From the NCBI GenBank assembly GCA_028281285.1, contig JANQKF010000015.1, forward strand, positions 186,001-250,000: 64,000 bases of DNA. The letters run 5' to 3'. Below the pieces are notes generated by a model. The model did not search any database. It was not told where the DNA came from and saw only the letters and a program-made list of their open reading frames with translations. A program made the translations under genes and the position numbers. This stretch comes from Cyclobacteriaceae bacterium (lineage in GTDB: Bacteria > Bacteroidota > Bacteroidia > Cytophagales > Cyclobacteriaceae). Positions 904 to 15,640 of this stretch are shown piece by piece; the first letter of the stretch is position 1; each line of letters begins with the position of its first letter.

Positions 904-3900
904 CTAATGTGTTGACGCGATAATGAAATCATCATCAATTTCCATATTACCTATGCCCATTCCCTGAGGCGTAACAGCCTCCTCATCTTCCAGTATTTTA
1001 ATCTCATGTTCCGACACAGAGGTCAATACAGACCATGGTTTGGTTGCTTTGACTTTTCCGTTAATGCCTTTCAAATTGCCAGCGGGTCCAACCGAATCTC
1101 GCAGACTATACACCTGATCTTCATCTATAATCTGAGCTAGTGCTAACCCGGTGACAAATTGAACATAAGGAAGTCTCTCAATCATATTGCTTACTTCGAT
1201 TGTGGAAATCGTGCCTCCTATTACCAACTTCTCCATATTTCCATTGATCCATGGGGAAATAAATGCTTTTAATGCTTCATTGAGCTCATTCACGAAGTAT
1301 CCGTTATTGTCCCCTTCAATAAACCTTACTGAACAGGTCACCTGAATATATTCGTAGAGCGGGTTAGTGATTTCCACCTCCACGAAAGCATTCTGATACT
1401 CTCCTAAATATTCTTTGACCTCATTGAGAAGCGTTGAATTCGCTCTTGGTGCATATATATTGCTCTGGGCAATTGAGGCCGGGTCTGGAACAACAGTCAC
1501 AAGAACGCTCCCACTTGCATTATCACTTTCCGTATTGGTGTGATTTATACACTTCACTGCATAAATCGATTGAAATCTTGAAAGCACCATTCGTTCATAG
1601 TCCCAAGCACAAATCGCACGTTGTTTGTGTCTGAGCGATTCACTTACGCGCTGATAAAAAGTACTGTGACTCTCTGCATTTTCTCCTCCAAAACTCGCGA
1701 GTGGATGAATGACCTTAGAAACTGCTGGAATTGGGGCAGCCAGCGATTTAATTGACCCTGCCGGGAGCGGGGCGCTTAAATCGGTTTCATTAGATTTTAC
1801 TATTCGACTGACCTTGATAGCATTCAAATTTATGGCCTGTGTATTACTCAATTGTGATGTGCCATTTGCCACACTAATCTTAATCCAAAAATAGCCTTGA
1901 GGCATAATTGAATTATTGTCAGTCATATCTGGCAAAAGACTCAAGCTCACCACTCCAGGCTCAGTAAAACCTTCAGTCCCGTCATTCAAGAGGTTTGATC
2001 CAAATTGTATCCATTCGTCATTGGCAAGGTATGTCCACTGAATATCAGGAGGGTCGATTAAAGTATGCTGCTCCTTGTAGTCACCAAGCTGGAAAAGCAG
2101 AGTAAGTTCCTGAGGAAGATCTAGTTGTGCAAAACCTAGAAGCAAATGGCCCTCCTCCTCCAAATAAGGAAACCAATAGCCGACAGGAGAATGTCCTTGA
2201 GCCACTTGTCCTGTGGAGAAGTTTGCCGAATAAGTCGTAAAAGGTCCATATTGATAAAAGGCCGCTGGAGCCAGACCTTCTACCCCCTTAAGGTTGTCGT
2301 TGGTAATCTCTTCTTTAGCAGAATAGTTGACAGCGACTGACTTTACTTGTGGAACAAAAGGAGTATTGGGAACGGCAAGCAGTTGCTTATGCTGAAAGAA
2401 AGACCACATCTTGACCTTAGCATTGTATAGCGCAACCTGGCCATTAATTACGGGATACTCATTCTGAGCAAAAGCATACGAAGGGTCAGAAAGTTCTAAC
2501 CTCAAAAAGCCATTTTTTGTCTTAATGCTATAAGTAAGATCTTGAGAAATGGTATAGTCAGGTTCAATAAGTCCTTGATTAAGATCAAGTGTAATGCTTG
2601 TGGCAGGCTCTAACTTTGAATCGCTACTTTCAGAAGAAAATAGCTCAACCTCTTGTCTCTGATCTTCTTGTGGCATCCATTTCCCTCCTGTTAATGCGCT
2701 GATGTTCACCTGAAAAGAATCGTTATCAATAGTCACCTTCGGAACAGTTGGCAATATATCCTGAACATCATAGGCTTGATAGTACTCTTTGAAACCACCT
2801 TCGCACTCAGGAAGATTAAACCAATCGATGTCAATTGACAACGATTCCAATTTCTTCTCAAAAAGTTCGGGAGACCCTATCATCAGTCCACTTCCCTTAT
2901 TAATCGGAGAAGGTTGAAAGGGCAGGAATGGCTTTCCAGGTTTAATCTTGGCCACGTCATTTACCAGTTCCAATTGATCAAGACCCACAACATTTACTTC
3001 GATATCAACTTTTTCAAGGACGAGCCCATCCACCAAACTGTAAGGATATTGTTGTGCTTTATTGTTGATTAGAACTTTAAGAACCGGCAGATCTGTAGTC
3101 AGGCCATCCTTTAGTTTCTTATCAACATAGCCAGTAATGCTCGGATCGTTGATGGATAGTGTAAACTCAAAATCGATTGTGTTATTTGATGGATCCAAGG
3201 TGTAGGTCACTTCAGGGATTGGGAGCCATTCTTTTTCTGTGCTCAGGAAAACATTAAAGCCCTCAGAAAAAATAGTTTGAATGGCAATAGCATCATTGAC
3301 ATACAGCTCCTGAAGGTTTTCCAAAATTGAACCGAGGCTCTCAAGTTGCTCATTCTCCTGTAGGTAAAAAGTGATTTTTACGTTCCTGGTCCCAGCTGCC
3401 AAGTAGAGTACCGGACTGGCTATAGCGAAACCCAGGGTGCTGTCTTCCATTGTTCTATCACCAGCGGTTAGTCCAAATTGATCTTCTCCAAATGTTGGCC
3501 AAAATGTATCCTCCTTATTGGTTCCATTCTTTGAGGGTGGTGTAGACTGGCTAAAGATGCCCGTTATCAAATCTGCACCGAGGTCAGCATCTATGATTTC
3601 ATTCCGTGCTATAAAGAGAGTATTCGCATAATCCAACTTCGCCTGTGACAACAACACCTGATTATCGGTCCGAAATACAATATCGTTACCTGAAGCGTCT
3701 TTCCCTGCCAACAATTTAGTGCCACCGGGAAGCGGATACATTTCAATATCCTTGTTCATCTGAAAATAGACATAAGCCGAATCCGGAATAGCTCCCAAAA
3801 GACTCATCTTCAGTGCCTTCTTAAAATAGAAATCCAAATGCTTCTTGGTGAGCCCGTTGAATCGAGCAATCAAAGGTTCTATCAGCTTGATGAATGTCAA

Positions 3901-4680
3901 ATAAAGCCCCACTTGGGGATTGAAATCATGCCGATCTTCGACTTCTTTTGGCCAGATAGTGGAAGCTGCATCTATTCGATTTTTGCGCGCTTTGGCAAAA
4001 TCCCAGAGGAACTCGGCAAACTTGGGTATAAGTACCTCAATCTTGTCGGAAATTAGAATCTCCTTATCTGGCTTTGATTGGTCAAACAGCTCAGGCGTTT
4101 GCACCCTATTTGCTGTAAACCAAATTCGTTCAAGTGCGGAATAGGCAAACAAAAAGTCCTCTGGTAAAAGATGCAATTGCACTGCATAACGCTGATAAGA
4201 TATAAGCTGCTGAACAATAATTGACAACTCGCCTTCAATCATCTTGATGAGGGCGACAGAGAAATTGTTTTCAACCTTTATCAAGTTCCCTTTGAAGAAT
4301 ACCAACCAGTCATTCATTTGATTGATCTGATCGAAAATACTGGAATTCAGGCGCTCAAAGCCGGCTAGCAGTTTCCGCTCATCTGTTTCACCCTCCAGTT
4401 TATTGATCATTCTGGAATAAGCATCACTCTCGCCAGATATGTCTATACTCGAAATCTTACATAGGTAGAGTGTGGGATCTGAAGCGAAAAAGTCATCCCA
4501 TTGTCCGTTCCACTTATAATCCAGGTCATAGTAATTTAAGAGTTTGCCATACTCCATAGCGAACATGGCGAGGTCCTTAAAGTTTCTTCCGTCCAAATTC
4601 ACCGCATCAGGACTGAGAGCCGCAGACATTCGCGTCACACGGTTTACTCCTAAATGGTCATATTTGACTTTTTGACTCAT
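904..4680 (-). CDS. eCIS baseplate J / gp6-like wedge protein (Afp11-like)
   Basis: Very large baseplate component, 1258 aa, following the gp25-like gene by 3 bp. The C-terminal third (about residues 1005-1200) carries the baseplate J signature: SFGGENAESHSTFYQRV, then LRHKQRAICAWDYERMVL and a YAVKC strand, followed by the ferredoxin-like VEVEITNPLYEYIQV domain. The N-terminal two thirds are predicted globular and beta-rich and are much less conserved. In Afp/PVC particles the equivalent protein builds the wedge that links the spike hub to the sheath. The family is fairly certain; whether it stands for Afp11 alone or an Afp11/12 fusion cannot be decided here, though its length would allow the latter. 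Confidence 0.85.
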   Translation of the reverse strand: MSQKVKYDHLGVNRVTRMSAALSPDAVNLDGRNFKDLAMFAMEYGKLLNYYDLDYKWNGQWDDFFASDPTLYLCKISSIDISGESDAYSRMINKLEGETDERKLLAGFERLNSSIFDQINQMNDWLVFFKGNLIKVENNFSVALIKMIEGELSIIVQQLISYQRYAVQLHLLPEDFLFAYSALERIWFTANRVQTPELFDQSKPDKEILISDKIEVLIPKFAEFLWDFAKARKNRIDAASTIWPKEVEDRHDFNPQVGLYLTFIKLIEPLIARFNGLTKKHLDFYFKKALKMSLLGAIPDSAYVYFQMNKDIEMYPLPGGTKLLAGKDASGNDIVFRTDNQVLLSQAKLDYANTLFIARNEIIDADLGADLITGIFSQSTPPSKNGTNKEDTFWPTFGEDQFGLTAGDRTMEDSTLGFAIASPVLYLAAGTRNVKITFYLQENEQLESLGSILENLQELYVNDAIAIQTIFSEGFNVFLSTEKEWLPIPEVTYTLDPSNNTIDFEFTLSINDPSITGYVDKKLKDGLTTDLPVLKVLINNKAQQYPYSLVDGLVLEKVDIEVNVVGLDQLELVNDVAKIKPGKPFLPFQPSPINKGSGLMIGSPELFEKKLESLSIDIDWFNLPECEGGFKEYYQAYDVQDILPTVPKVTIDNDSFQVNISALTGGKWMPQEDQRQEVELFSSESSDSKLEPATSITLDLNQGLIEPDYTISQDLTYSIKTKNGFLRLELSDPSYAFAQNEYPVINGQVALYNAKVKMWSFFQHKQLLAVPNTPFVPQVKSVAVNYSAKEEITNDNLKGVEGLAPAAFYQYGPFTTYSANFSTGQVAQGHSPVGYWFPYLEEEGHLLLGFAQLDLPQELTLLFQLGDYKEQHTLIDPPDIQWTYLANDEWIQFGSNLLNDGTEGFTEPGVVSLSLLPDMTDNNSIMPQGYFWIKISVANGTSQLSNTQAINLNAIKVSRIVKSNETDLSAPLPAGSIKSLAAPIPAVSKVIHPLASFGGENAESHSTFYQRVSESLRHKQRAICAWDYERMVLSRFQSIYAVKCINHTNTESDNASGSVLVTVVPDPASIAQSNIYAPRANSTLLNEVKEYLGEYQNAFVEVEITNPLYEYIQVTCSVRFIEGDNNGYFVNELNEALKAFISPWINGNMEKLVIGGTISTIEVSNMIERLPYVQFVTGLALAQIIDEDQVYSLRDSVGPAGNLKGINGKVKATKPWSVLTSVSEHEIKILEDEEAVTPQGMGIGNMEIDDDFIIASTH

Positions 4681-4683
4681 AAA

Positions 4684-5100
4684 TTAGCCGATGTTGGTGC
4701 CCTCTCTGAAATAGTATGGATAAACTACATTATGCCTTGTATTGGTCTGGCTAATCGAAAAGTCGATGTTGATTAGCAATACTCCATTCAAGTATCCGGA
4801 ATCATCAAGCTCAATTGAATTCAAAACAATGCGAGGTTCGTAGTTGAGGATTGCCATTTGAATTTGAGATTTCATTTTAGTCTTGGTAGTAGTGTCAAGT
4901 GGTGCAAAAACAAATGCTTTTAAATCGCAACCATACTCTTCCAGCATAATTCTCTCACCTGGGATTGTATTGAATAAAATATCCAGACTTTGTTCAATAT
5001 CATCCAGACCTCCAACCATCTCAACGCTATGGTTGTGTTTCGAAAAAGTAGGTGGAAAGCTCCATCCATGTCCGATGATATCGTCTTGCGCGCTATTCAT
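4684..5100 (-). CDS. GPW/gp25 family baseplate wedge protein (Afp9-like)
   Basis: 138 aa, the usual size for gp25-like lysozyme-fold wedge proteins. Residues 29-60 contain the conserved core: GGLDDIEQSLDILFNTIPGER followed by MLEEYGCDLKAFVF, matching the phage pattern of an initial D/E-rich helix, TxPGER and YG. The C-terminus has alternating hydrophobic strands (LLINIDFSIS). In contractile machines gp25 sits at the junction of baseplate and first sheath disc and triggers sheath polymerisation. The gene lies directly after the PAAR gene, with no gap, and 3 bp before the baseplate J gene. Confidence 0.93.
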   Translation of the reverse strand: MNSAQDDIIGHGWSFPPTFSKHNHSVEMVGGLDDIEQSLDILFNTIPGERIMLEEYGCDLKAFVFAPLDTTTKTKMKSQIQMAILNYEPRIVLNSIELDDSGYLNGVLLINIDFSISQTNTRHNVVYPYYFREGTNIG

Positions 5101-5400
5101 TTAACCTCCTATTTCTACTGTTGGAAATCCTGTCAAAATTGTTCCTCCGTGTGCAGTTTCATCACCCATTCTTGCCGCTGGCATCCCTCCTATCATTACG
5201 GTTGCTGATCCCATGGCAATACTATCAGGTGGACCAACACAAATCAGCATATCGCCCACCCGTGCTGCGGGCATTCCTCCAATTATGACTGTCGGGCATC
5301 CGGGGCCTATAATTGGCCCTCCAACATGTGGAATTGGAATTGGGGTTGGGTCCTCCATTGGACACTCGTGCATATCTGTCAATCTTGCTGCAGGTGGCAT
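5101..5400 (-). CDS. PAAR-domain spike tip protein (Afp10-like)
   Basis: 99 aa, made almost wholly of PAAR repeats: MPPAARLTDMHECP at the start, GGMPAARVGDMLICVGPPD in the middle and GGMPAARMGDETAHGG near the end, with glycine-rich beta turns between them. His and Cys residues in these motifs would hold the metal at the cone apex. In CIS particles this protein sharpens the VgrG trimer and can carry effectors; here there is no extension beyond the PAAR fold, so any toxin would have to be a separate protein. It lies 11 bp after the spike gene. Confidence 0.95.
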   Translation of the reverse strand: MPPAARLTDMHECPMEDPTPIPIPHVGGPIIGPGCPTVIIGGMPAARVGDMLICVGPPDSIAMGSATVMIGGMPAARMGDETAHGGTILTGFPTVEIGG

Positions 5401-5411
5401 CGCTTTAATTT

Positions 5412-7202
5412 TTAGTTAATATTCACCATTGCTCCACTGATCGAAACCATAGTTTCTCCTGACATCGAAGTGCTTGCACCGGAAAGTGATAGCTCAGATT
5501 CTCCACTAACCGAGACCGATAAGCCAGAGACTGAAACCGATGCATCCGAAGATCCTGTTATCCCCTCCGGACCAGTTAAAGTCATAGAGCTCGTGGCCTT
5601 TAGGGTCATCGCTGCCATACTTTCTATTTCAATACCCGATGATGACATCTTGATTGAATTTCCATTCTGGTCTTTTATCGTGATCCCTTCGTCCTCATCA
5701 CTAAAAGTCATCGTATTTCCTCCAGGAGTTTCTAGTTCGAGTACTTTCTTCTCATCATCGAATGTGATTTTTAGCTGACTATTGGTGACTATGGCTTTGG
5801 TGGAATTTTGTTCATCTGGTGTATATGGAGCGGCTTTTTTGTCATTACTGTATAGCGAGCCCAAAATAACAGGGTAACGTGGGTCTTCGTTGAGAAAGCC
5901 CAGGACCACCTCATCGCCTACCTCCGGATAAAAGAAAGTACCTGCCTTATTAGTGGCGTAGAGGTTGGAAAGGCGCGCCCAAATACCGTCTCCATCGGCC
6001 GAAATAATTGGAACATTCACCAAAACCCTAAGCTGACCATCGGGGTCTTCATTGATTTGTTTTACCGTACCATTTTGTAATCCCGTAATTGCTGGTAAAA
6101 GTCCGGATGCAGGAGGGGAATTGATATCAAACTCCTGCTGAAACCATTCATAGTTCAGACCCAACGTAACCTGCGTTACCCAATTACCATTGGATATATC
6201 ATGCTCAAAGCCAGAAATAAAGCCTGTACCATTGAAGCGTTCTCCTAACCCTGCCAGAGTGATTGTCTTACCCAGCCCCACTAATGAGCTTCCTTGAAAG
6301 CTGACCTTTCCTCGTATTTTGGATAGCTGTGATTTAAGCATTTTTGCTTTGGCCCATACTTCCAGTTGGCTTTGTTCTATGGGTGCAGTTGACTGTAGAT
6401 CAAAATCGGAAACGTCTAACACCCCTGCTAAAGTAGAATTGGAAATATTACCGGGGAGTGTTAGCGACTGATCACTTCCTTCCGCATTTACCAATTCCTG
6501 CGAAGAAAAATCCCAGGCATTTGATTTAACAGATGAAAGTTGAGTGCGAGCATCCATTTCAGCATCAAACTCGAGAATATCGTCCCCATAGGTCACCGTA
6601 AGAACAGGAGAACTACTTGTATCAGGTTTTTTGACACTGACCGTACCATCATTGACAGCAACGATTAACCCGTTGATTTCGGCCCTAGAAAGTGCAAAAT
6701 CCCAGTCTGTTGCATAATACTGAACAACTTCCTTGAGTTCAACAGAGGTACTCTCCACATCAGGTGTAAGTCCAGCATCACTGATTGCTTTGCTTATCAC
6801 ATCACTGTCCTTTGAGTTGGTGTAATAAGCATTTTTCCTACCCACCGTCATCTTTACCGCCTTATCCTGACATTCTACTTCGATAACAGACGGAGTTCCT
6901 CCTCTTACCTTTAGCCCTTGCTGAACCACAATTCCCTTAAAAATTGTGCTATTGTCCGAGTTGTATCCTGCCTTTACTTCAATTTCAGTTCCTGGGACGA
7001 AGGTTGAAGAATCACTAATCTTAAAGTCTTCCAGGGCTGGAACACCATCGTATAATGTCAATTTTGCTGTTGGAATTCTGTTAACATCATATCTCACCAA
7101 AATTGATTTTACTTCATAGGTATCATCAATAGGTGATCCATTCGATAAAATATCAAAGGATACTAAGTCAGTTTTCTCAGTTACGGGAGAAGGAGCAGCC
7201 AT
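5412..7202 (-). CDS. VgrG/Afp8-like spike protein of the eCIS
   Basis: 596 aa. The N-terminal part (residues 10-330) resembles the gp27-like hub (FDILSNGSPIDDTYEVKSI, then late-control-D type segments such as FKGIVVQQGLKVRGG), an OB-fold follows (residues about 370-450: DGDGIWARLSNLYATNKAG, VGDEVVLGFLNEDPRYPVI), and the tail (470-596) is a repetitive Ser/Gly/Val-rich beta-helix ending SISGAMVNIN. This is the classic fused gp27-gp5 layout of VgrG and Afp8/Pvc8. The last 130 residues show no extra effector domain. Downstream, the PAAR gene supplies the tip. The antisense strand of the repetitive 3' end also has a long open frame, which is an artefact. Confidence 0.95.
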   Translation of the reverse strand: MAAPSPVTEKTDLVSFDILSNGSPIDDTYEVKSILVRYDVNRIPTAKLTLYDGVPALEDFKISDSSTFVPGTEIEVKAGYNSDNSTIFKGIVVQQGLKVRGGTPSVIEVECQDKAVKMTVGRKNAYYTNSKDSDVISKAISDAGLTPDVESTSVELKEVVQYYATDWDFALSRAEINGLIVAVNDGTVSVKKPDTSSSPVLTVTYGDDILEFDAEMDARTQLSSVKSNAWDFSSQELVNAEGSDQSLTLPGNISNSTLAGVLDVSDFDLQSTAPIEQSQLEVWAKAKMLKSQLSKIRGKVSFQGSSLVGLGKTITLAGLGERFNGTGFISGFEHDISNGNWVTQVTLGLNYEWFQQEFDINSPPASGLLPAITGLQNGTVKQINEDPDGQLRVLVNVPIISADGDGIWARLSNLYATNKAGTFFYPEVGDEVVLGFLNEDPRYPVILGSLYSNDKKAAPYTPDEQNSTKAIVTNSQLKITFDDEKKVLELETPGGNTMTFSDEDEGITIKDQNGNSIKMSSSGIEIESMAAMTLKATSSMTLTGPEGITGSSDASVSVSGLSVSVSGESELSLSGASTSMSGETMVSISGAMVNIN

Positions 7203-7205
7203 AAT

Positions 7206-7859
7206 TTATTTTTTGAGTGGTGGAAAGTAAAGTTGAGTGCCAGGAGGAATATTTCTGAAGTGTTTCAGCTTATTTACCTTGGCAATTTCAATATAGCGAC
7301 TACTATCATTATAAATTTGGTGGCAAAGTAACGGCAGCGTTTCCCCACCCCTCATTATCCTCACATGAGATAAATCAGGTGATTTTTTGTTTGCTATCCT
7401 GGCGATTGTTCGAGCATCCAGAAACTCAATAAATTCAACATTTACCTCGGCCCTCAGTGGGGTTCCATCCGGCTTGAAAAGTGTGTATGAGATCTGCATT
7501 GAGGTCAAACGACCTTTAAAAAGGGTCGTACCCCAAGTCAGTTCCACGAAATACGGACTATGAATATCTCCATCATAGTCATAGACCAATCCTTGAAATT
7601 TTTTGATCTCGCTGGGCAGATCAGTGCTCGCTCCTTCCACCACTCCTGTAGAATCAAAAATGAGCTGAAACTTCACTGTCTCTGCTGGGACCTTGCTAAA
7701 CTTCGGACTCGATCCGGCCGCTCCAACAGGATTTCGCTTATTGTATTCTATGCTATAACCCTGCTCATATTTGGCCGGATTGATCATGACTTCATACGTA
7801 CCAGCCTGCTCAGAAAATCCCGCATCCTTGTATGCCGTTATGGTAAGTTTTTTGAGCAC
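7206..7859 (-). CDS. LysM-containing tube initiator protein (Afp7-like)
   Basis: 217 aa, GTG start one base after the DUF5908 stop (TAA A GTG). The first 150 residues match the CIS tube/baseplate adaptor family: YEVMINPAKYEQGYSIEYN, then KFQLIFDSTG, and a beta-rich domain ending in AEVNVEFIEFLD. Residues about 178-215 form a LysM module (HQIYNDSSRYIEIAKVNKL to IPPGTQLYFPPL). In Afp and PVC this protein sits between the spike hub and the first tube ring; the LysM module is structural there and not necessarily for peptidoglycan binding. Confidence 0.9.
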   Translation of the reverse strand: MLKKLTITAYKDAGFSEQAGTYEVMINPAKYEQGYSIEYNKRNPVGAAGSSPKFSKVPAETVKFQLIFDSTGVVEGASTDLPSEIKKFQGLVYDYDGDIHSPYFVELTWGTTLFKGRLTSMQISYTLFKPDGTPLRAEVNVEFIEFLDARTIARIANKKSPDLSHVRIMRGGETLPLLCHQIYNDSSRYIEIAKVNKLKHFRNIPPGTQLYFPPLKK

Positions 7860-7860
7860 T

Positions 7861-8028
7861 TTATCTTGTCATTTTCTTGAGTTGTATGTCTCTGACTTTG
7901 TCGAGACATTCCGCAATAATCTCTTTCTTGATTACCTCAAGACTCTCCTGATCTAAAGCGACCCTTTTTTTGGATTGACTATCAGCAATACTCGTTCGGA
8001 TGATCAATTCACGCACATGTATTGGCAT
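7861..8028 (-). CDS. DUF5908 family eCIS microprotein (55 aa)
   Basis: A 55-codon frame from ATG at 8028 to TAA at 7861 fills the gap between the second tube gene and the Afp7-like gene. The product starts MPIHVRELIIRTSIAD and continues with KKRVALDQESLEVIKKEII, and is predicted to be a short strand followed by a charged helix. From memory this start (MPIEIRELVIK-like) is the hallmark of DUF5908, a tiny protein found almost only in Bacteroidota eCIS loci and easily missed by gene callers. Its role is unknown; its place in the operon and size suggest an assembly factor or baseplate staple. Stop and next start are separated by a single base, implying coupling. Confidence 0.88.
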   Translation of the reverse strand: MPIHVRELIIRTSIADSQSKKRVALDQESLEVIKKEIIAECLDKVRDIQLKKMTR

Positions 8029-8030
8029 AA

Positions 8031-8501
8031 TCAGGAACTTTGAGTGAAATAGTCATAAGCAAACTCCATTGATTCAATTACCAGGGCATTGTCATTGGAT
8101 TTCAAGTCAGAAATTGACCACTTAATTGGATAGGCATTCACAAAATTCCAGCTCATCAGCGTATCTCCATTCTTGGAGTTTACATCAAGAAGTGAAACAG
8201 TAATGGCTTTAGGCTTAATAGGATTCTCGAAATTGCCCCCGATTGTTTCCTGGCACCATTTTGCAAGTTGAGATCCGCTTAGGACTTCTCCTCGCTTGAG
8301 TGTTAGATTTGAATACTTGGCTGGTTTAGGCAGTTTATGCCTATATCTATTCTCACCCCCTTCTTCTTGCTCCTGGACCTCAAGCTCCATAGAAATACCT
8401 GCGGCCTCTTGAAAGGCCGCATCTGTATCAGAAGAAATTCCGGTAAAACCCAATTTAAAATAATAGGCAACCGGAGGTCTATAAATTGGACTATCCGACA
8501 T
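8031..8501 (-). CDS. eCIS inner tube protein, second paralogue (Afp5-like)
   Basis: 156 aa, T4 gp19-like fold. Features: YYFKLGFTGISSDTDAAFQEA near the N-terminus, the central lysine/glycine loop LTLKRGEVLSG and a C-terminal strand MEFAYDYFTQSS. It is clearly related to the upstream 157-aa tube protein but diverged: here the loop after residue 35 is very acidic and Q/E-rich (VQEQEEGGENRYR). In related particles one paralogue forms the bulk tube and the other the first ring on the baseplate; the neighbour order (tube, this gene, DUF5908, LysM protein) favours the initiator role for this one. Confidence 0.85.
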   Translation of the reverse strand: MSDSPIYRPPVAYYFKLGFTGISSDTDAAFQEAAGISMELEVQEQEEGGENRYRHKLPKPAKYSNLTLKRGEVLSGSQLAKWCQETIGGNFENPIKPKAITVSLLDVNSKNGDTLMSWNFVNAYPIKWSISDLKSNDNALVIESMEFAYDYFTQSS

Positions 8502-8509
8502 AGCGACTA

Positions 8510-8983
8510 CTAACTACCAGAAGCAGGATTAGCAACAGTCAGACCTTCATGTGCAATTTCGATTGTCTCAACAGCCACTTCGTTACCATCAGACTTCAAA
8601 TCAGTTCCTTGAATCTTAGTAGGCCAAGCGTTCTTCAGTGTCCACTGCATAGTAGCTTTACCGTTTTCGTCCAACAACTGAATGACTACATCAATTCTGG
8701 CAATAGTGTTCATTTGTATCTGACTATACCATTTCCAGAAACTGTTATCATTGACAAAAATGCCTTTCTTCATGGTCACATTGCCATACTTTGCAATGCC
8801 GGGCATCTTGATCGTGGAGAATTGTTTGCTATTGCTGTGTCTATATTCAATAATCTGTGTCTCTGCTTCCAATCCGGTCACTTCCTGAAAGGACAGGTTG
8901 GTGGTTGATCCCCACGAAACCTGGAAATAAAATTTCGGTAAGGGCCAAATGGCATCTTCGACTTTTCCTGTAGTATCAGACAT
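8510..8983 (-). CDS. eCIS major inner tube protein (Afp1-like)
   Basis: 157 aa, gp19/Hcp-like tube protein. WPLPKFYFQVSWGSTTNLSF opens the fold; residues 38-50 hold the typical tube pattern EVTGLEAETQIIEYRHS, followed by KMPGIAKYGNVTMKKGIF and a C-terminal helix/strand VETIEIAHEGLTV. It lies 23 bp after the sheath gene and 8 bp before its paralogue. The position directly behind the sheath and the close fit to the family pattern make it the likely major tube subunit, through whose channel cargo would be loaded. Confidence 0.9.
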   Translation of the reverse strand: MSDTTGKVEDAIWPLPKFYFQVSWGSTTNLSFQEVTGLEAETQIIEYRHSNSKQFSTIKMPGIAKYGNVTMKKGIFVNDNSFWKWYSQIQMNTIARIDVVIQLLDENGKATMQWTLKNAWPTKIQGTDLKSDGNEVAVETIEIAHEGLTVANPASGS

Positions 8984-9006
8984 AATTTTCTAGTTTAAAT
9001 TGTGGA

Positions 9007-10584
9007 TTAAGCAGTTTGTTGCTGCTGGATAAATGTGATTACAATGAATTCTGCAGGGTGAGAAACAGCTACCATTACGGTGATGTTCATGAATCCCTGG
9101 GCTACGTCTTCCGCAGTCATCGTCTGGTTCAACCCAACGGCTACCTTGAACGCACTACCTTTGGCTCCCACCACTGCACCCTTACTCCATTGATCGGTCA
9201 AGAAGTTTTCAATCATCGTTTTGACCAATGCCCATGTATTCGCTGTATTCGGCTCAAACACATACGCCCTGGCTGCCAATTTGATGGATTGTTCGAGCAT
9301 GATCATGGTTCGCTTGACATTGGTATATCGCCAGTCATCACTATTGCCATCTAAGGTTCTCGCTCCCCATACCAAAGTACCAAGGCCCGTAAATAAACGG
9401 ATCGCATTAATCGACTTGCCAGTAAGTGCATCCACATTCAATGGTCCTTGCTGAGCATCAGTGAGATTGATGGTCGGGCCGGTAACGGAATTGATACTCA
9501 CATTGGCGGGAGCATTCCAAACGCCTTTGGTATTATCAACCATAGTATAAACGCCTGCCATTGCTCCGGAAGGTGGGAGATTATTTACCTGGAGCATGAG
9601 ATGCTTCATCATATTAGTATAGTCTTTACTCGCCACCATCAAAGCTTGGTTACTTTGAGCACTAGTGGGAGCATTGGTTGCAGGTGGCTTTTCAATTTGG
9701 CCAATGATATTCGCAACAGATGAGCCAGCTGCGGGCTGCAGTACAGTATTAACGGCTGTAATTCCGCCACCGATATTTGTGTAATCAATCTCAGTAGGTT
9801 GAGTGATCAGCGTATTCAGAAAAGGATAATAGGCATTCCCGTATTTGAGATCGTTCATTCCTGTGCCCGTTCTAAAAGCGGTGATGTCATTCATGAATTG
9901 TAGGGGGTCAGGTTCATTACCTCCAACCACATCAAAAATGGAAACAAGACTCTCCTGTTCACCACAGAAGTCCAACATTTTTTGAGTAAGCTCAGAGTAC
10001 CCATCTGCTCCCAGCAACGTTCCGTCCGGAACTACCAACATGGTTGGCATTGGGTCTTGCAAACTGGCCAGTTGGTCAATTCCATTCGACAGTTCGGTGA
10101 ACTGAATATTGGGATTAATCAATGGATCACCGTTGGCACTCGATTTTCCCGATGGGGAAGCATATGATCCAACGGATACGACATACGCCTGCCCTCCACC
10201 ATTCGCAAAGAAGAAACGAATACTATTGTACAAATAGTAAATCGTAGACATATCAGGGTTAACCGTATAGATGTTCCCATTGACCGTGAAATAATCTCCA
10301 ACGGTCGGTTTTTTAGTCTGTGCATTGAAGTAGTAGATCGGAGAATACTGTTGTAGAGGAGCCGCTGGAGCTACCGGTTCTATAACTCCGAAATAGGTCA
10401 TAAAGTCCTGAAGAGAACTGATCAATACAGGCTTGTTCAAATAAGACTTGCCTTCATAATCCGCTCGTGCCGTATATCCCACAAAAGCCGGTATTGCCGT
10501 TTGAACGGCCACCACCGAATTCGGAAACGCATTTTCCTCATCGATATAAACTCCAGGGGTGGTTGGTGTCACTGCTAAAGCCAT
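9007..10584 (-). CDS. eCIS contractile sheath protein (Afp2/3-like)
   Basis: 525 aa. The N-terminus (TPGVYIDEENAFPNSVVAV, then IPAFVGYTARA) and the C-terminus (LTDQWSKGAVVGAKGSAFKV, ending AEFIVITFIQQQQTA) are the two interlocking arms that mesh sheath subunits in phage tails and CIS. The middle insertion (residues about 60-330) is the variable, surface-exposed domain. There is a single sheath gene, in contrast to the three in Afp, which is usual for AlgoCIS-like loci. Contraction of this sheath drives the tube and spike forward. Confidence 0.95.
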   Translation of the reverse strand: MALAVTPTTPGVYIDEENAFPNSVVAVQTAIPAFVGYTARADYEGKSYLNKPVLISSLQDFMTYFGVIEPVAPAAPLQQYSPIYYFNAQTKKPTVGDYFTVNGNIYTVNPDMSTIYYLYNSIRFFFANGGGQAYVVSVGSYASPSGKSSANGDPLINPNIQFTELSNGIDQLASLQDPMPTMLVVPDGTLLGADGYSELTQKMLDFCGEQESLVSIFDVVGGNEPDPLQFMNDITAFRTGTGMNDLKYGNAYYPFLNTLITQPTEIDYTNIGGGITAVNTVLQPAAGSSVANIIGQIEKPPATNAPTSAQSNQALMVASKDYTNMMKHLMLQVNNLPPSGAMAGVYTMVDNTKGVWNAPANVSINSVTGPTINLTDAQQGPLNVDALTGKSINAIRLFTGLGTLVWGARTLDGNSDDWRYTNVKRTMIMLEQSIKLAARAYVFEPNTANTWALVKTMIENFLTDQWSKGAVVGAKGSAFKVAVGLNQTMTAEDVAQGFMNITVMVAVSHPAEFIVITFIQQQQTA

Positions 10585-10603
10585 AGTTAATTTTTTTTAT
10601 TTG

Positions 10604-11359
10604 TTACAAATAGACATATGTTTTGGAGGAGAACTTGGCGCTCTTTGAACTAGTCAGTGGAGCAATATTGGCCACACTTGGAGCTGGAAGAAATCTCTCC
10701 GGGTTGATATTTAAATAAATTTTGTTTTTCTGAGTCTGATATACCGGGACCTGCCCTCTTGATGCGAACAGCAAGGCAGCCTGTCCATTTTCCAAGGTTG
10801 TTGGCTTGGGCACACCAAATTTGATATCCCCTTCCATTCTTAATTCTGTATTGGAATAATTTAGGACGTAGTATTCCCAAATTGTCTTTCTTGAATCAAA
10901 TGAAATGTTGTAAGCTGCCGACTTGATAGAACTTGTCTTTTCTTCTATCAACTCACTCCATGATATTGAGGCAATTGCGAAACCCTGACGCTCCGAACCG
11001 ATGGTATAGCTCAATTTGCCATTACCAGACACACCCTTATTCGAGAAAATCAGAGTATTGAGATTGTTTTCAGGAAGGTCAGTGAAATTGCTGAAACTTA
11101 CATTTTGAGAATGGAAACCAAATTCACAAACTAAGCCTTCTATTTCTTTGAGTTGATTCTCAATCAAATTAGCTCGTTCCCAAAAATCGACATTATATAG
11201 CACAACCAAGCCTGAATCAGTTCTCCTGAAAAGAAGCCCAAACCTTTTCATAAGGCTGGTGCAAGCACTGGTAGGAGATACCACCAACTCATGGAACTTC
11301 CCATCGGTGTAGTAGGAATGAGAGAAGTTGATCTCAAAGAAAGTGGCGTAAGTACTCAT
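10604..11359 (-). CDS. unknown eCIS protein between tail terminator and sheath
   Basis: 251 aa, not recognised. Its ATG overlaps the stop of the Pvc16-like gene by one base (TAATG) and it ends 19 bp before the sheath start, so it is part of the structural operon. The sequence is soluble, without signal or membrane segments; the first 90 residues have a mixed alpha/beta look (FHELVVSPTSACTSLMKRFG) and the end is Pro/Ser rich (RFLPAPSVANIAPLTSSKSA). Genes in this place in related Bacteroidota loci code for cap or tube-plug proteins; this is inference from position only. Confidence 0.7.
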   Translation of the reverse strand: MSTYATFFEINFSHSYYTDGKFHELVVSPTSACTSLMKRFGLLFRRTDSGLVVLYNVDFWERANLIENQLKEIEGLVCEFGFHSQNVSFSNFTDLPENNLNTLIFSNKGVSGNGKLSYTIGSERQGFAIASISWSELIEEKTSSIKSAAYNISFDSRKTIWEYYVLNYSNTELRMEGDIKFGVPKPTTLENGQAALLFASRGQVPVYQTQKNKIYLNINPERFLPAPSVANIAPLTSSKSAKFSSKTYVYL

Positions 11360-11946
11360 TAGTTTAGGTTGTTGGGGGTCACTTGTGGAGATGTTCCAGA
11401 GATATTGGCGACCTCATTGGTGATCTGATCACCATCAACGCACAACATCTTCATTTTATATATGGCCGAAGGCAAATATTTAGCCCCTAATGATTCATAC
11501 AGGTGAGCTGCCTCTCTGTAAGACAACTTTTCCATATCGAAGATCAATTTGTTTATGTCACTGGGGAAGTCAGGATATTGCTGCCCTGTGAAAACTGGTG
11601 AAGATTGAAAATAGAGGATCGTCTTTGAAAGAAATTTCAGCGACTCTTCATAGAGGTCAAAATTCGCTGAAAACAACACGTCCAGATTTAAGAAAAGGGG
11701 TGGATAACTAATCGTTGATGTTGTTCCATTGGCCTGTTGCGAATGAAAACTCCCGTTGTACTTTGTGGAAGTCTCTTTTTCAACGTTGATTAGTGTGACA
11801 ACCACTTTATTGTGAGCGCCTACCGGAACCGAGCCATCTGAATTTACGATATTGGAAAGCACCGCTCCATCTGAAACCAAATCGAAAGACGACTTAAGAT
11901 AATTATTAAGTTTTTCAGTAATGAATTTCAATGCTTCATTAATCAT
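11359..11946 (-). CDS. Pvc16/DUF4255 family tail terminator (Afp16-like)
   Basis: 195 aa, first gene of the visible eCIS operon. The start MINEALKFITEKLNNYL, the VGAHNKVVVTLINVEKE strand and PPLFLNLDVLFSANF match the DUF4255 (Pvc16_N) family, whose members cap tube and sheath and fix particle length. The family's second half also fits (YREAAHLYESLGAKYLPSAIYKMKML). An AT-rich region of about 250 bp without genes lies upstream and should hold the operon promoter. In Afp and PVC the homologue is the last gene of the structural set; here it is the first. Confidence 0.88.
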   Translation of the reverse strand: MINEALKFITEKLNNYLKSSFDLVSDGAVLSNIVNSDGSVPVGAHNKVVVTLINVEKETSTKYNGSFHSQQANGTTSTISYPPLFLNLDVLFSANFDLYEESLKFLSKTILYFQSSPVFTGQQYPDFPSDINKLIFDMEKLSYREAAHLYESLGAKYLPSAIYKMKMLCVDGDQITNEVANISGTSPQVTPNNLN

Positions 11947-12240: not shown

Positions 12241-12255
12241 GTGGAGAATACCGGA
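12241..12255 (-). repeat. attachment-site-like copy of the tRNA-Ala 3' end
   Basis: The 15 bases gtggagaataccgga are identical to positions 15566-15580, the acceptor and T-arm end of tRNA-Ala(GGC); identity stops abruptly on both sides. By chance a given 15-mer is expected far less than once in 64 kb. The pair would be attL/attR of an element integrated into the tRNA gene. Confidence 0.75.
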
Positions 12256-12323
12256 CTCCCTTGTTCGTAGCTTTCTTACTCTTGTTATTGCTCATAATCA
12301 GCACTATAGGCCATTATTGATAA

Positions 12324-12390
12324 TGTGACAGCGTGTGACAAGTACGATTCACCGCACTTTTACTCCGAAATTGTGACAACCTTTGTGACA
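12324..12390 (+). repeat. four TGTGACA direct repeats
   Basis: The heptamer tgtgaca occurs at 12324, 12334, 12372 and 12384, as two close pairs (spacing 10 and 12 bp, about one helical turn). They lie about 70-150 bp inside the island's left end. This layout would suit arm-type sites of a recombinase or operators for the island's HTH protein; neither is shown. Confidence 0.55.
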
Positions 12391-12418
12391 AATCCACCCC
12401 AAAATCGTGCCCGTTTTT

Positions 12419-12444
12419 GGTCAGAATTTTCGAAACTTCTGACC
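12419..12444. repeat. 8-bp inverted repeat in the island's left non-coding end
   Basis: GGTCAGAA and TTCTGACC flank a 10-base loop. Nearby are two more small dyads (CCGAA-AA-TTCGG near 12484, TCCGG-TTCT-CCGGA near 12527). With the TGTGACA repeats they make 12256-12571 a structured non-coding region; no gene is seen in it. No T-tract, so not a clear terminator for the ASCH gene that ends at 12572. Confidence 0.4.
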
Positions 12445-12571
12445 ATCAAGGACTAATGTAAAACCTCACTACATATCCAATGTCCGAAAATTCGGTCAAC
12501 AAACACATAATTACGTACCTATTGTCCGGTTCTCCGGAATAACTTGAAACGTGCTTTACCTTAATTTGTGA

Positions 12572-12943
12572 TTATCGTATATATGCGAATGACTGAGGAG
12601 GTGTAATTCCGAATGTTTCTTTGATACACATTGGGCTGTCATATTTTTCAGCTTTTTTCACTTCGATGGCAAACCCACTTTCGATTCCTTCAAAATACTG
12701 TAAATAATAATCCTCTGATATTCCGGAATACTCATTGGTGTATTCCCATAAAGGTTTTATCTCATCATGAAGTACTGATCCAATTTCAAATTCGCCAATG
12801 ACCTTACTAATTGGAGCTGACGCATAGACGACCACCACCTTTACTTCTGTATTCTTATAAATTCTTCTCCTGAACTCAAAGCGTTTTGAACCATCAAAAA
12901 TCTTCTCAGCGAATTCAGGTTTAATCGATAATATAACTTTCAT
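12572..12943 (-). CDS. ASCH domain protein
   Basis: 123 aa. The start MKVILSIKPEFAEKIFDGSK with FEFRRR and the strand VVVYASAPISKVIGEFEI are typical of small ASCH (PUA-like) proteins, which bind RNA or modified nucleotides in a basic cleft; E22, R25 and K20 line the expected site. The tail PQSFAYIR closes the beta-barrel. The gene overlaps the end of the PIN-GNAT-EVE gene by 23 bp and is last in the island operon, so it probably works with that protein. Its exact ligand is unknown; a toxin or modified-base reader role is inferred from family and context. Confidence 0.85.
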   Translation of the reverse strand: MKVILSIKPEFAEKIFDGSKRFEFRRRIYKNTEVKVVVVYASAPISKVIGEFEIGSVLHDEIKPLWEYTNEYSGISEDYYLQYFEGIESGFAIEVKKAEKYDSPMCIKETFGITPPQSFAYIR

Positions 12944-14423
12944 TTGCTCTTGCTTCGGTCAACATTCTTTCAAATGTCCCTTGTTCTAAGGGTTCAAATC
13001 CTCTAGGCCATTCATTGAGGAGACCAAGTTCATTTAGTCTTCGATAATTCACTTTTGGTGTCGGCAGCGAATCTATATAAAGAAAGTAAACAATAAAAGG
13101 TCTCGATCTCGGATTATAATTCCAATATGCTCTTAATTCGTCATCATTGAAAACACTTCTCTTTCTGCACAGTTCAATGAAATGAGATTCGTCTCTGATG
13201 TCATGAACAGCTTTCTCCACCACCCCAATTGTCGAAATCACACTTCGATGAATACCTCCGGTTCTATAGAAGAGTATAATATCTCCAGGGTTCAAATTCC
13301 TGTTTACAGATCTAGATATATAGACTTTTCTAATTGCATTACGGTAAGGTTCATTTTCCATGAAATCATGAGGTGACTCATTATTCAAAATGGAATCTGG
13401 GAAAAGTTCCGTATGGTATTCGGGGTAAATGGGAACTATAAATCTAGGCCTAGATTTTGACACAAATGGATAGGTAAGTCTAGGGTTTTCAATATTGACA
13501 AATGGCCTAAAGTCTCTGACATAAACTAATTCATTTCCATTTTCTGTGATTTTCTCACCCCAGTAAACAAAACCCCAGTCTTCCAACAGCAATATCAATC
13601 TTTCCTGTTCGGATCTCCGATTGAAAATTGTGACATATATTTCATCCACTCTGTTGAGTAAAGCATTGTCGAAAACAATTTTCAAAAACCTCTCCCCCAA
13701 TTTGTACCCAGTAGATTCTACTTTAAAAGTGCCAATTTTTAACCGTTTCTTAGGGGCAAAATTGGGGTTTATGTCACCATAATTTTCTTCTTGATTTTCA
13801 ATTTTGACATACAAAAATGCACGTACTCTGTCATCTGAAACACATACATAACATTCGTCATCTGCCTTTCGTTGAAACCATTCCTCAAAGCCATTATAAT
13901 CTTCCTTGAAGCTATTAAAAAAGTCATCCCCCAGATTCACGTTGCCGAAATACTGCTTCTTGGCCGCTAGAACTTCATAATCTCTTAAACCAGGGTTTTC
14001 TACAATGACCTTTTGTAAAAAAGAATCGATAGTAAAGACCTTTTCTCCAATACCAAGAGTTCTGGCTTTGGCATGAACACCTCTGTCCTCTGAAATAAGA
14101 AGATCCACTCGTCTATTGTATACCTCTTTTATCAAATCTGTATCGACCGAATCGTTTACAGTTCTGTCGTTCGCACGGAGTGCAATTATTTGTTCGACTT
14201 CTTCTGAGATTGTTCTCAGTGCTTGATAGTTTTGAGCCTTTATAGTCATCGTTCTCACAACCTCTGGATCGTCATGTCTGGCAAATTCATCAATGGTTGA
14301 GGGGTGAATGCATTTCTCATATCCCAAAGTGTCCAACCAGTTGAAGAGTATTCCAATGTCTTCGTTGACTACTGTCCTTGCTTCTCGATGAATAATGATA
14401 TTCGTATCTAACAGTATTCTCAT
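12921..14423 (-). CDS. three-domain PIN nuclease - GNAT acetyltransferase - EVE/PUA-like protein
   Basis: 500 aa. Residues 1-150 are a PIN domain with all four acidic positions in sight: LLDTNIII (D6), STIDEF (E46), VDTDLI (D97 region) and ISEDRGVHAKA. Residues about 190-300 look like a GNAT fold, with FKVESTGYKLGERFLKIVF as the acetyl-CoA loop and a final LEDWGFVYWGE strand. Residues about 330-490 resemble EVE/PUA-like domains: VYISRSVNRNLNPGDIILFY, then ISTIGVVEKAV and PFIVYFLYIDSL. PIN domains cut RNA; EVE and ASCH domains read modified bases; the combination in one chain suggests RNA surveillance or phage defence. ATG overlaps the preceding stop by 4 bp. Domain calls rest on motif reading only. 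Confidence 0.75.
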   Translation of the reverse strand: MRILLDTNIIIHREARTVVNEDIGILFNWLDTLGYEKCIHPSTIDEFARHDDPEVVRTMTIKAQNYQALRTISEEVEQIIALRANDRTVNDSVDTDLIKEVYNRRVDLLISEDRGVHAKARTLGIGEKVFTIDSFLQKVIVENPGLRDYEVLAAKKQYFGNVNLGDDFFNSFKEDYNGFEEWFQRKADDECYVCVSDDRVRAFLYVKIENQEENYGDINPNFAPKKRLKIGTFKVESTGYKLGERFLKIVFDNALLNRVDEIYVTIFNRRSEQERLILLLEDWGFVYWGEKITENGNELVYVRDFRPFVNIENPRLTYPFVSKSRPRFIVPIYPEYHTELFPDSILNNESPHDFMENEPYRNAIRKVYISRSVNRNLNPGDIILFYRTGGIHRSVISTIGVVEKAVHDIRDESHFIELCRKRSVFNDDELRAYWNYNPRSRPFIVYFLYIDSLPTPKVNYRRLNELGLLNEWPRGFEPLEQGTFERMLTEARANESYIID

Positions 14424-14947
14424 AGGTTTAGCTTTTCTATCTCTTCAATCAATTCTTCAATATCATCCTGAACGATGACTGCCTTCACTCCAATTAATTT
14501 GGCCACTTCTAATCCATGCTCCACTTCCTTGTCTTGCATTTCTTTTAGGACGGCTTCTTCATACTTTCGGTGATCTCTATTTGACAATCGATCCGAAACC
14601 TCTTCCACATTACAAGTCTTGATTGCAATGAGTCTTGGAGATATCAATTCAAATGTCTTGACATCAACTTTGTTAATCTTTCCTTGAGAGTCGAACAGGC
14701 AAAAATGTCCATCTAAAATGTAACTGGAATTCATATCTACTTTACCCCTTAGTCCCGAGATCAATCTGTTTTGGGTATCGGAAATGTCACTTACCAATTT
14801 ATTGGTTTGGTCGGTGTTCAACTCTGACCACTTCAACACATCGCTTGCACTCAAATGAATTAAACCGAGCTTATCACTTATTTTTGACGCAATTATGCCT
14901 TTACCTGATCCATGAATACCCCCTAAAAAAACAATATTCTCATGCAT
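14420..14947 (-). CDS. P-loop ATP-binding protein, adenylate-kinase-like fold
   Basis: 175 aa when begun at ATG 14947; a TTG four codons upstream is less likely. Walker A is VFLGGIHGSGKGIIASKI; LGLIHLSASDVLKW resembles the NMP-binding region of nucleoside monophosphate kinases, YILDGHFCLFD would be the Walker B strand, and RLSNRDHRKY the lid arginines. Closest in style to small AAA/AK-like kinases found with ASCH proteins. It is first in the island operon and overlaps the PIN-GNAT-EVE gene by ATGA, so the products are probably made in a fixed ratio. Substrate unknown. Confidence 0.75.
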   Translation of the reverse strand: MHENIVFLGGIHGSGKGIIASKISDKLGLIHLSASDVLKWSELNTDQTNKLVSDISDTQNRLISGLRGKVDMNSSYILDGHFCLFDSQGKINKVDVKTFELISPRLIAIKTCNVEEVSDRLSNRDHRKYEEAVLKEMQDKEVEHGLEVAKLIGVKAVIVQDDIEELIEEIEKLNL

Positions 14948-15157
14948 GCTGTGTGGCAAAAATGACTGTTCATCTTAGTCTTTCAGATAACAAGATATAA
15001 AAACATACAAAATAAACTTATAATAGTTATATGAAATGCATCTAGTTTATGATGGTTAAAACCGCCCAACAAATCTGAACTAGTAACTTTTATGGTAAGA
15101 ATAGTTTCTCTCACTAACTGAGTCACAAATATCTCAACAAGAAATACTTGCGAGAAA

Positions 15158-15478
15158 ATGAAGCGCAACCACCAAAAACTAAAATATCGCTTGGCCCAAA
15201 TGGCTGTGATTTTGCCATTTAAGATGACTGAAAAAGAATTTTGTGAAAAACTCGGAATTCCGTGGTCTACTTATCAAAAAGACAAGAGCACCCTTAAAAC
15301 AGACAGGTTTTCAATGCCCGAATCTCGACTCTATAGATATGCAAAAGCATATGGAGTCAAAATGGAAGATATCCTAAATTACAAGATCGATGTCTTGTGC
15401 CTTGATCAAATGGATGAGGAAGAAATGGTCAGGCGAGTTGCTGCGGAATTTGGACTTTCACGGTCCATAAGTCCATAA
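15158..15478 (+). CDS. small HTH-like protein, possible island regulator
   Basis: 106 aa, divergent from the three-gene operon across a 198-bp AT-rich spacer. MTEKEFCEKLGIPWSTYQKD looks like a helix-turn-helix with a recognition helix, followed by SRLYRYAKAYGVKMEDILNY, reminiscent of XRE/Cro-type proteins that end in a short helix. The N-terminus is basic (MKRNHQKLKYR). The best guess is a DNA-binding regulator of the island. It reads toward the tRNA-Ala gene and ends 36 bp before that gene's terminator hairpin. No close family is recognised. Confidence 0.65.
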   Translation: MKRNHQKLKYRLAQMAVILPFKMTEKEFCEKLGIPWSTYQKDKSTLKTDRFSMPESRLYRYAKAYGVKMEDILNYKIDVLCLDQMDEEEMVRRVAAEFGLSRSISP

Positions 15479-15513
15479 TCATAGACGCATTCTAGGATGA
15501 TGGACTTTTTGTA

Positions 15514-15561
15514 TAAAAAAAATAAGCTCGTAATAATCTGATTTACAGATAGTTACGAGCT
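15514..15561 (-). terminator. terminator after tRNA-Ala(GGC)
   Basis: On the minus strand AGCTCGTAA and TTACGAGCT pair (9 bp), with an inner 5-bp stem CTGTA-region, followed by TATTTTTTTT. It starts 5 bp after the tRNA 3' end and lies inside the island, so it came with the element. Confidence 0.8.
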
Positions 15562-15565
15562 CTTT

Positions 15566-15640
<75 letters not shown>

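Follow-up and report, generated by a model that had tools for sequence, protein, structure and literature searches.

A PIN-GNAT-EVE/ASCH/AAA_17 cassette as cargo of a small tRNA-Ala island in a Cyclobacteriaceae genome

The window (the whole stretch of 64,000 nucleotides that we analysed) contains an operon of three overlapping genes transcribed from the minus strand, the kinase-like gene first, then PIN-GNAT-EVE and ASCH, as the initial annotation had described it. The first gene (14420..14947, with an alternative TTG start possible at 14959) encodes an adenylate-kinase-like P-loop enzyme, recognised by AAA_17 (E = 2.7e-15), AF2 and Foldseek. It overlaps by 4 bases with the gene for a 500-residue PIN-GNAT-EVE protein (12921..14423), which matches the PADLOC model PDC-M11A (E = 9.5e-211). 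The latter gene in turn overlaps by 23 bases with that for a 123-residue ASCH protein (12572..12943), presumably an antitoxin or regulator, which matches PDC-M11B (E = 5.5e-50) and falls just under the cut-off of Pfam ASCH (E = 6.5e-4). A combined promoter and terminator scan gave no more promoters than shuffled sequence.

The PIN-GNAT-EVE protein consists of a PIN domain (residues ~1-142), a GNAT domain (150-306) and an EVE/ASCH-like domain of PUA fold (322-494). Fusion of GNAT to the C-terminal EVE domain is confirmed by PADLOC, Pfam, AF2 and VIA-align, and VIA-align places the C-terminal domain as a fold relative of ZmASCH (see below). Among the 73 family members, Pfam finds PIN_3 in 61 and EVE in 38 (both at E up to 0.1); the window protein itself has no PIN_3 match. 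PIN is an RNase fold, and its acidic set is conserved in the family alignment, in keeping with the early claim that the acidic residues are present. The domain reading of the initial annotation was right, with PADLOC and Pfam matches and with GNAT and PUA-like folds predicted as it had expected; the PIN domain is the part of that reading assigned from sequence only. No structural match confirmed PIN, either in the VIA-align table, which scarcely probes residues outside 148-308, or with a solved-structure profile. The cofactor loop of GNAT domains has the motif R/Q-x-x-G-x-G/A. The loop of the present family is unusual in that the expected middle Gly is replaced by Lys or Arg in 72 of the 73 members, which makes the use of acetyl-CoA uncertain.

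The closest solved relative of the ASCH protein is ZmASCH (PDB 5guq, 5gus, 5y6b, 5y6c), which the ASCH family profile matches at E = 9.6e-25. In the accessible part of its literature, ZmASCH is reported to be a Mg-dependent single-strand RNase. Tyr47 and Ser128 of ZmASCH align with Y40 and S118 of the window protein, kept in 36/36 and 34/36 sequences of the ASCH alignment, respectively. The position aligned with Lys53 is K in 6 of the 36, and the neighbouring next position is K or R in 29.

The AF2 model of the kinase (pLDDT 94.7) is matched in Foldseek by archaeal adenylate kinases with TMq up to 0.78. The kinase fold and the P-loop are present, and K20, D83-G84-H85 and R128 (counted from the TTG start at 14959) are each conserved in 41/41 sequences. 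The protein scores below the cut-offs of curated nucleotide kinases, reaching at most 30.1 bits with NCBIfam (cut-offs 102 bits and more) and 24.3 with Pfam ADK (cut-off 26.8). It has no PDC-M11 match; its weak PADLOC matches are to PDC-M51B (E = 0.002) and VakA (E = 0.0041).

A genome scan with alignment A1 gave at least 587 stretches and at least 229 relatives of the PIN-GNAT-EVE protein. We examined the best-scoring 80, and the survey is therefore biased to close relatives. Within these best 80 of at least 229, an ASCH gene lies no more than 150 bases downstream of PIN-GNAT-EVE in 73 and no more than 1500 bases in 5, the two loci without ASCH both end within 830 bases, and the genes overlap in 67. 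The kinase gene is directly upstream of PIN-GNAT-EVE in 32 of the same 80 and within 2.5 kb in 4; it is absent at 40, with none farther away in those loci, and undecidable at 4. Since 40 of the 76 testable loci in this sample lack it, the kinase appears to be dispensable. The initial expectation that the three genes keep together thus held for PIN-GNAT-EVE and ASCH (78/80) and in part for the kinase (36 present, 40 absent, 4 undecidable). By hand labelling, the 36 kinase-positive loci among the best 80 of at least 229 relatives comprise 30 from Bacteroidota, two from Firmicutes, one from Nitrospirae, one each from a gammaproteobacterium and a cyanobacterium, and one unlabelled; none of the seven archaeal loci in this hand-labelled sample has a kinase.

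Genome searches added 14 loci (L046-L059), of which all have ASCH and eight have the kinase; L055, without kinase, is cut by a contig end. The kinase profile matches 15 of 59 related genomes at E 1e-3 (own genome included), strong matches (E 1.1e-61 or better) being confined to the four genomes that have PIN-GNAT-EVE and the next best being 1.4e-6. Moreover, ASCH and kinase form a single ORF at L056, L057 and L059, in three genomes of one related genus. This fusion and the confinement of the strong matches rule out the kinase as a chance neighbour. When ORFs of at least 90 residues within 5 kb were counted at 87 loci, just two neighbours recurred at more than 8 of them: ASCH at 81 and the kinase at 39.

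PDC-M11A matches occur in 15 of 395 genomes of the phylum, 12 of them strong (own genome included), and PIN-GNAT-EVE relatives are also found in archaea and many bacterial phyla. There are 33 matching plasmid records, 17 of which cover at least 80% of the query, and 16 phage records, which include duplicates of one phage; two of the 16 reach this coverage. Viral contigs gave seven loci in the alignment scan and none in the single-protein scan.

Three rarer neighbours were seen near PIN-GNAT-EVE genes. A family of ~370 residues (for example L083:8524-9645) recurs in 7 of the 87 loci, in six of them downstream of PIN-GNAT-EVE; the L083 member has no Pfam or PADLOC match and precedes a displaced ASCH gene. 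A 362-residue family (L129:5080-6165; eight loci, no Pfam match) and a separate gene with an HNH-like start by eye (L129:6165-7001; six loci) are mostly upstream.

The operon is enclosed in a 3.3 kb island (12241-15583) between two copies of the tRNA-Ala 3' end, 3325 bp apart. The initial annotation had spoken rightly of a mobile island, which is now bounded. One end is the 3' end (15566-15583) of the tRNA-Ala(GGC) gene itself (15566..15640, minus strand), the presumed integration site; the distal end is a copy at 12241..12258 (plus strand), identical at 17 of 18 positions. This 18-mer, like the TGTGACA pattern below, was picked after being seen. With up to 3 mismatches allowed, chance would give 0.04 occurrences in the window; there are two, one of them the tRNA, and genome-wide there are only these two exact pattern matches and one with 2 mismatches. 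Four direct TGTGACA repeats on the plus strand (12324..12390; starts 12324, 12334, 12372 and 12384) are presumed to be binding sites of a recombinase or of the HTH protein. The latter has 106 residues, is encoded at 15158..15478 (plus strand), convergent with tRNA-Ala, and has a weak HTH_26 match (E = 5.8e-4) under the cut-off. The ORFs of at least 45 residues between the island repeats are the operon, the HTH gene and one 61-residue ORF of no known meaning; there is no integrase among them. We rejected the HTH gene as a member of the operon because it recurs with other cargo (see below), which assigns it to the island frame.

Genes of a contractile injection system (904-11946; CIS_tube, two gp19 tube proteins, sheath, Pvc16_N, gp25, Baseplate_J and Phage_base_V) directly adjoin the island, and NlpC-like and CAP-like genes (by eye) lie on the other flank of the operon. 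For comparison, we used 11 other tRNA-Ala loci of the same genus (L035-L045). No clean empty site for the window island was found among them, because the injection genes of the distal flank (three ORFs, tblastn) are unmatched near their tRNA-Ala. A PafA-like gene is a common far flank only in L035, L036, L037 and L043. At up to 3 mismatches, the 18-mer is single-copy in L035, L036, L039, L041, L042, L044 and L045, and present in more copies in L037, L038, L040 and L043. Two of these were not counted as siblings of the window island: L038, where two copies 346 bp apart surround a GIY-YIG-like gene with no HTH gene, and L040, with three imperfect copies.

Among 118 genomes, the HTH protein is found in 4, its own genome among them, at five places. 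All are in the window's genus, and each place adjoins a tRNA whose 3' end is present a second time. Across 291 genomes of the order, the HTH profile is strong only in sampled members of this genus, with weak matches in G639 (8e-5 and 7.2e-4). Three genomes of this genus thus hold four sibling islands, which have the HTH gene and the TGTGACA-repeat ends in common with the window island and differ in their cargo. These islands are located in genome G010 (L043, 2355-4819; end copies 2447 bp apart, 18/18 identical), at tRNA-Ala in G002 (L037, 13600-16568; 2951 bp, 15/18), in G016 (L158, 1537-4737; 3183 bp, 17/18) and at tRNA-Ser(GCT) in G002 (L159, 7713-10355; 2628 bp, 15/15). In the distal ends of all five islands, the first TGTGACA (in L037 just TGTGAC) begins between positions 83 and 86. 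It is followed by a pair of TGTGACA copies spaced exactly 12 bases apart, with starts ranging from 131/143 to 154/166; four islands have this pair without mismatch, L037 with one. Shuffling the distal ends gave no such pair in 2000 trials per end. On both strands of 694,022 bases there are four pairs, the number of islands therein (matched by count, not one by one).

The cargo of the window island is PDC-M11. The G010 island carries PDC-M19A (5.6e-118) and PDC-M19B (1.1e-116), the tRNA-Ala island of G002 AbiH (Pfam 9.1e-27, PADLOC 4.6e-6) and HEC-09 (1.5e-39), and the G016 island PD-Lambda-2_C (8e-34), cll (1.4e-25) and DUF3800 (2.7e-17). The tRNA-Ser island of G002 gave weak matches only (PDC-S05, 6.2e-4). 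The cargo of four of the five islands (three of the four siblings) thus has a PADLOC match below 1e-30, a rate for which there is no random-gene baseline. A gene pair that looks PDC-M19-like by eye, resembling the G010 cargo, adjoins a PIN-GNAT-EVE/ASCH pair at L053:10889-12632.

The exact TGTGACA pair occurs in 9 of 118 genomes at 10 places, four of which are islands; a reversed-pattern control gave two places. The others are in G004, G005, G011 (two), G449 and G500; the G449 pair lies inside a long ORF and may be a chance occurrence. At L184, where a tRNA-Ala 3' end is ~56 bases away, the pair covers the called start of a tyrosine integrase ORF (L184:917-2289), and L182 has two pairs just upstream of another tyrosine integrase gene (L182:5210-6748). 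At L180 and L181 the pair adjoins tRNA-Ser(GCT), with no island seen. In G040, an L184-like integrase adjoins a stretch that shares 76% identity with tRNA-Ala of the window. The island genomes G000, G002, G010 and G016 have no homologue of the L184 integrase at E 1e-3. Presumably, the islands are moved in trans by the tyrosine recombinase of passing elements that use the same tRNA and repeats. We consider it probable that, within one Bacteroidota genus, such integrase-less mini-islands of 2.4 to 3.3 kb form a family, each with two copies of a tRNA 3' end, a distal TGTGACA array, a gene for a small HTH protein that converges with the tRNA gene, and a single cargo that can be exchanged (a PADLOC defence or candidate match in 4/5).

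The less expected part of our analysis is this tiny island at a tRNA end, with look-alikes in related bacteria that carry other, mostly defence-type cargo. If real as a family, the islands would offer a simple natural means of exchanging defence cassettes, with the same frame, mostly the same tRNA and different cargo. Because the island ends are common to the family, a search for further cargo, and hence for unknown defence systems, is directly possible.

Operons with a (PIN)-GNAT-EVE fusion, an ASCH partner and often an AAA_17 ATPase were described by Bell, Wolf & Koonin (2020; PMC7641849) as putative toxin-antitoxin operons, in which, in the part of the article available to us, no module had been experimentally characterised at that time. 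Judged by its sequence, the window operon is a further copy of this already described, putative toxin-antitoxin or phage-defence cassette. On balance, we lean towards a (PIN)-GNAT-EVE/ASCH/AAA_17 cassette, carried as cargo of the small tRNA-Ala island, in which an RNA-targeting toxin would be restrained by ASCH, with the kinase as an accessory. The PIN-GNAT-EVE protein would be the toxin: its C-terminal EVE/PUA domain may dock on RNA, probably modified or phage-altered, such as tRNA, the PIN domain would cleave the docked RNA, and the GNAT domain may acetylate either the RNA or an aminoacyl group that the RNA carries. By binding this RNA or the toxin itself, the co-translated ASCH protein would hold the toxin inactive until an infection disturbs the balance. 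The kinase, on the ASCH side, could be an accessory phosphotransferase or a nucleotide sensor that sets the control by ASCH. In favour of this reading are the PDC-M11 matches, the domain matches with the conserved acidic set of PIN, the near-constant ASCH neighbour, the toxin and antitoxin labels of a phage GNAT-EVE/ASCH pair (see below), the RNase report on ZmASCH, the association and fusion of the kinase, and the PADLOC-matching cargo of three siblings. Against it count the loci that lack the kinase, the absence of a structural match for PIN, the unusual GNAT loop and the poorly kept position aligned with Lys53.

It is less likely that the operon is a modification-type system, nearer to restriction-modification (RM) than to toxin-antitoxin, in which an acetyl mark placed by GNAT on a base of DNA or RNA would let EVE and ASCH tell self from non-self, and PIN would destroy RNA that is unmarked or foreign. 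According to Bell et al. (PMC7641849), who credit Iyer et al. (2013) and report their proposal of DNA-base acetylation, PIN-GNAT-EVE frequently occurs with type I RM operons; both points favour such a system. In the same direction, the genes at L056, L057 and L059 adjoin ORFs that look like type I RM by eye. However, no RM gene was seen directly adjoining the window operon, the GNAT loop is altered, and the PIN fold is that of an RNase. A selfish addiction module that secures the maintenance of the island and protects little or not at all against phages would suit an operon that is the main cargo of a small repeat-flanked island, but we think it improbable: the island frame persists in four siblings that have no PIN-GNAT-EVE module, and the cargo of three of the four matches PADLOC models. 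Most doubtful is a two-nuclease abortive module, with ASCH as a second RNase effector like ZmASCH instead of an antitoxin, for which the ZmASCH report and the conserved Y40 and S118 speak, but against which stand the non-conserved equivalent of Lys53 and a phage pair, GevT/GevA, whose labels make ASCH the antitoxin.

The initial annotation was right in its conflict or defence flavour but wrong in knowing no named system with this set: the PDC-M11 matches, the GevT/GevA labels and the description in PMC7641849, as far as available, rule out a new, nameless system. The core proteins match PDC-M11A and PDC-M11B of the PADLOC phage defence candidate PDC-M11, whereas the kinase gets no M11 match; PADLOC candidate models and GenBank labels are annotations, not proof of function. 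No experiments on the operon or its relatives were found in the open-licence literature searched. The window operon shares with those of Bell et al. the domain order, the ASCH partner and the often present AAA_17 gene, but it sits in a tRNA island with no type I RM gene seen adjoining, and the ASCH-kinase fusion of L056/L057/L059 is absent from the available part of their description. New here are the bounded operon copy, the kinase survey, the link of kinase and ASCH including the fusion, and the mini-island family. Escherichia phage PhiR47_2 (PV340567.1) has a GNAT-EVE/ASCH pair labelled GevT/GevA in its GenBank record; we found no paper behind these names, and one on the similarly named phage PhiR47.1 has no mention of Gev. 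Its GNAT-EVE part is 40.5% identical over 69% of the window PIN-GNAT-EVE protein, its ASCH partner is 49% identical to the window ASCH, and the genes overlap, but no PIN part is matched and no adjacent kinase gene is annotated. ZmASCH is related in sequence to the ASCH gene and in fold to the C-terminal domain of the PIN-GNAT-EVE protein; in contrast to both, it is characterised in the accessible sources as a stand-alone protein of 148 residues, and its Lys53 is not conserved at the aligned position in the window ASCH family.

Cis-mobilisable elements (CIMEs) have flanking att repeats and no integrase of their own. The window island resembles CIMEs and tRNA-targeted islands in being integrase-less and flanked by att repeats, but islands of its type differ from them in their common HTH gene, TGTGACA end array and exchangeable cargo.
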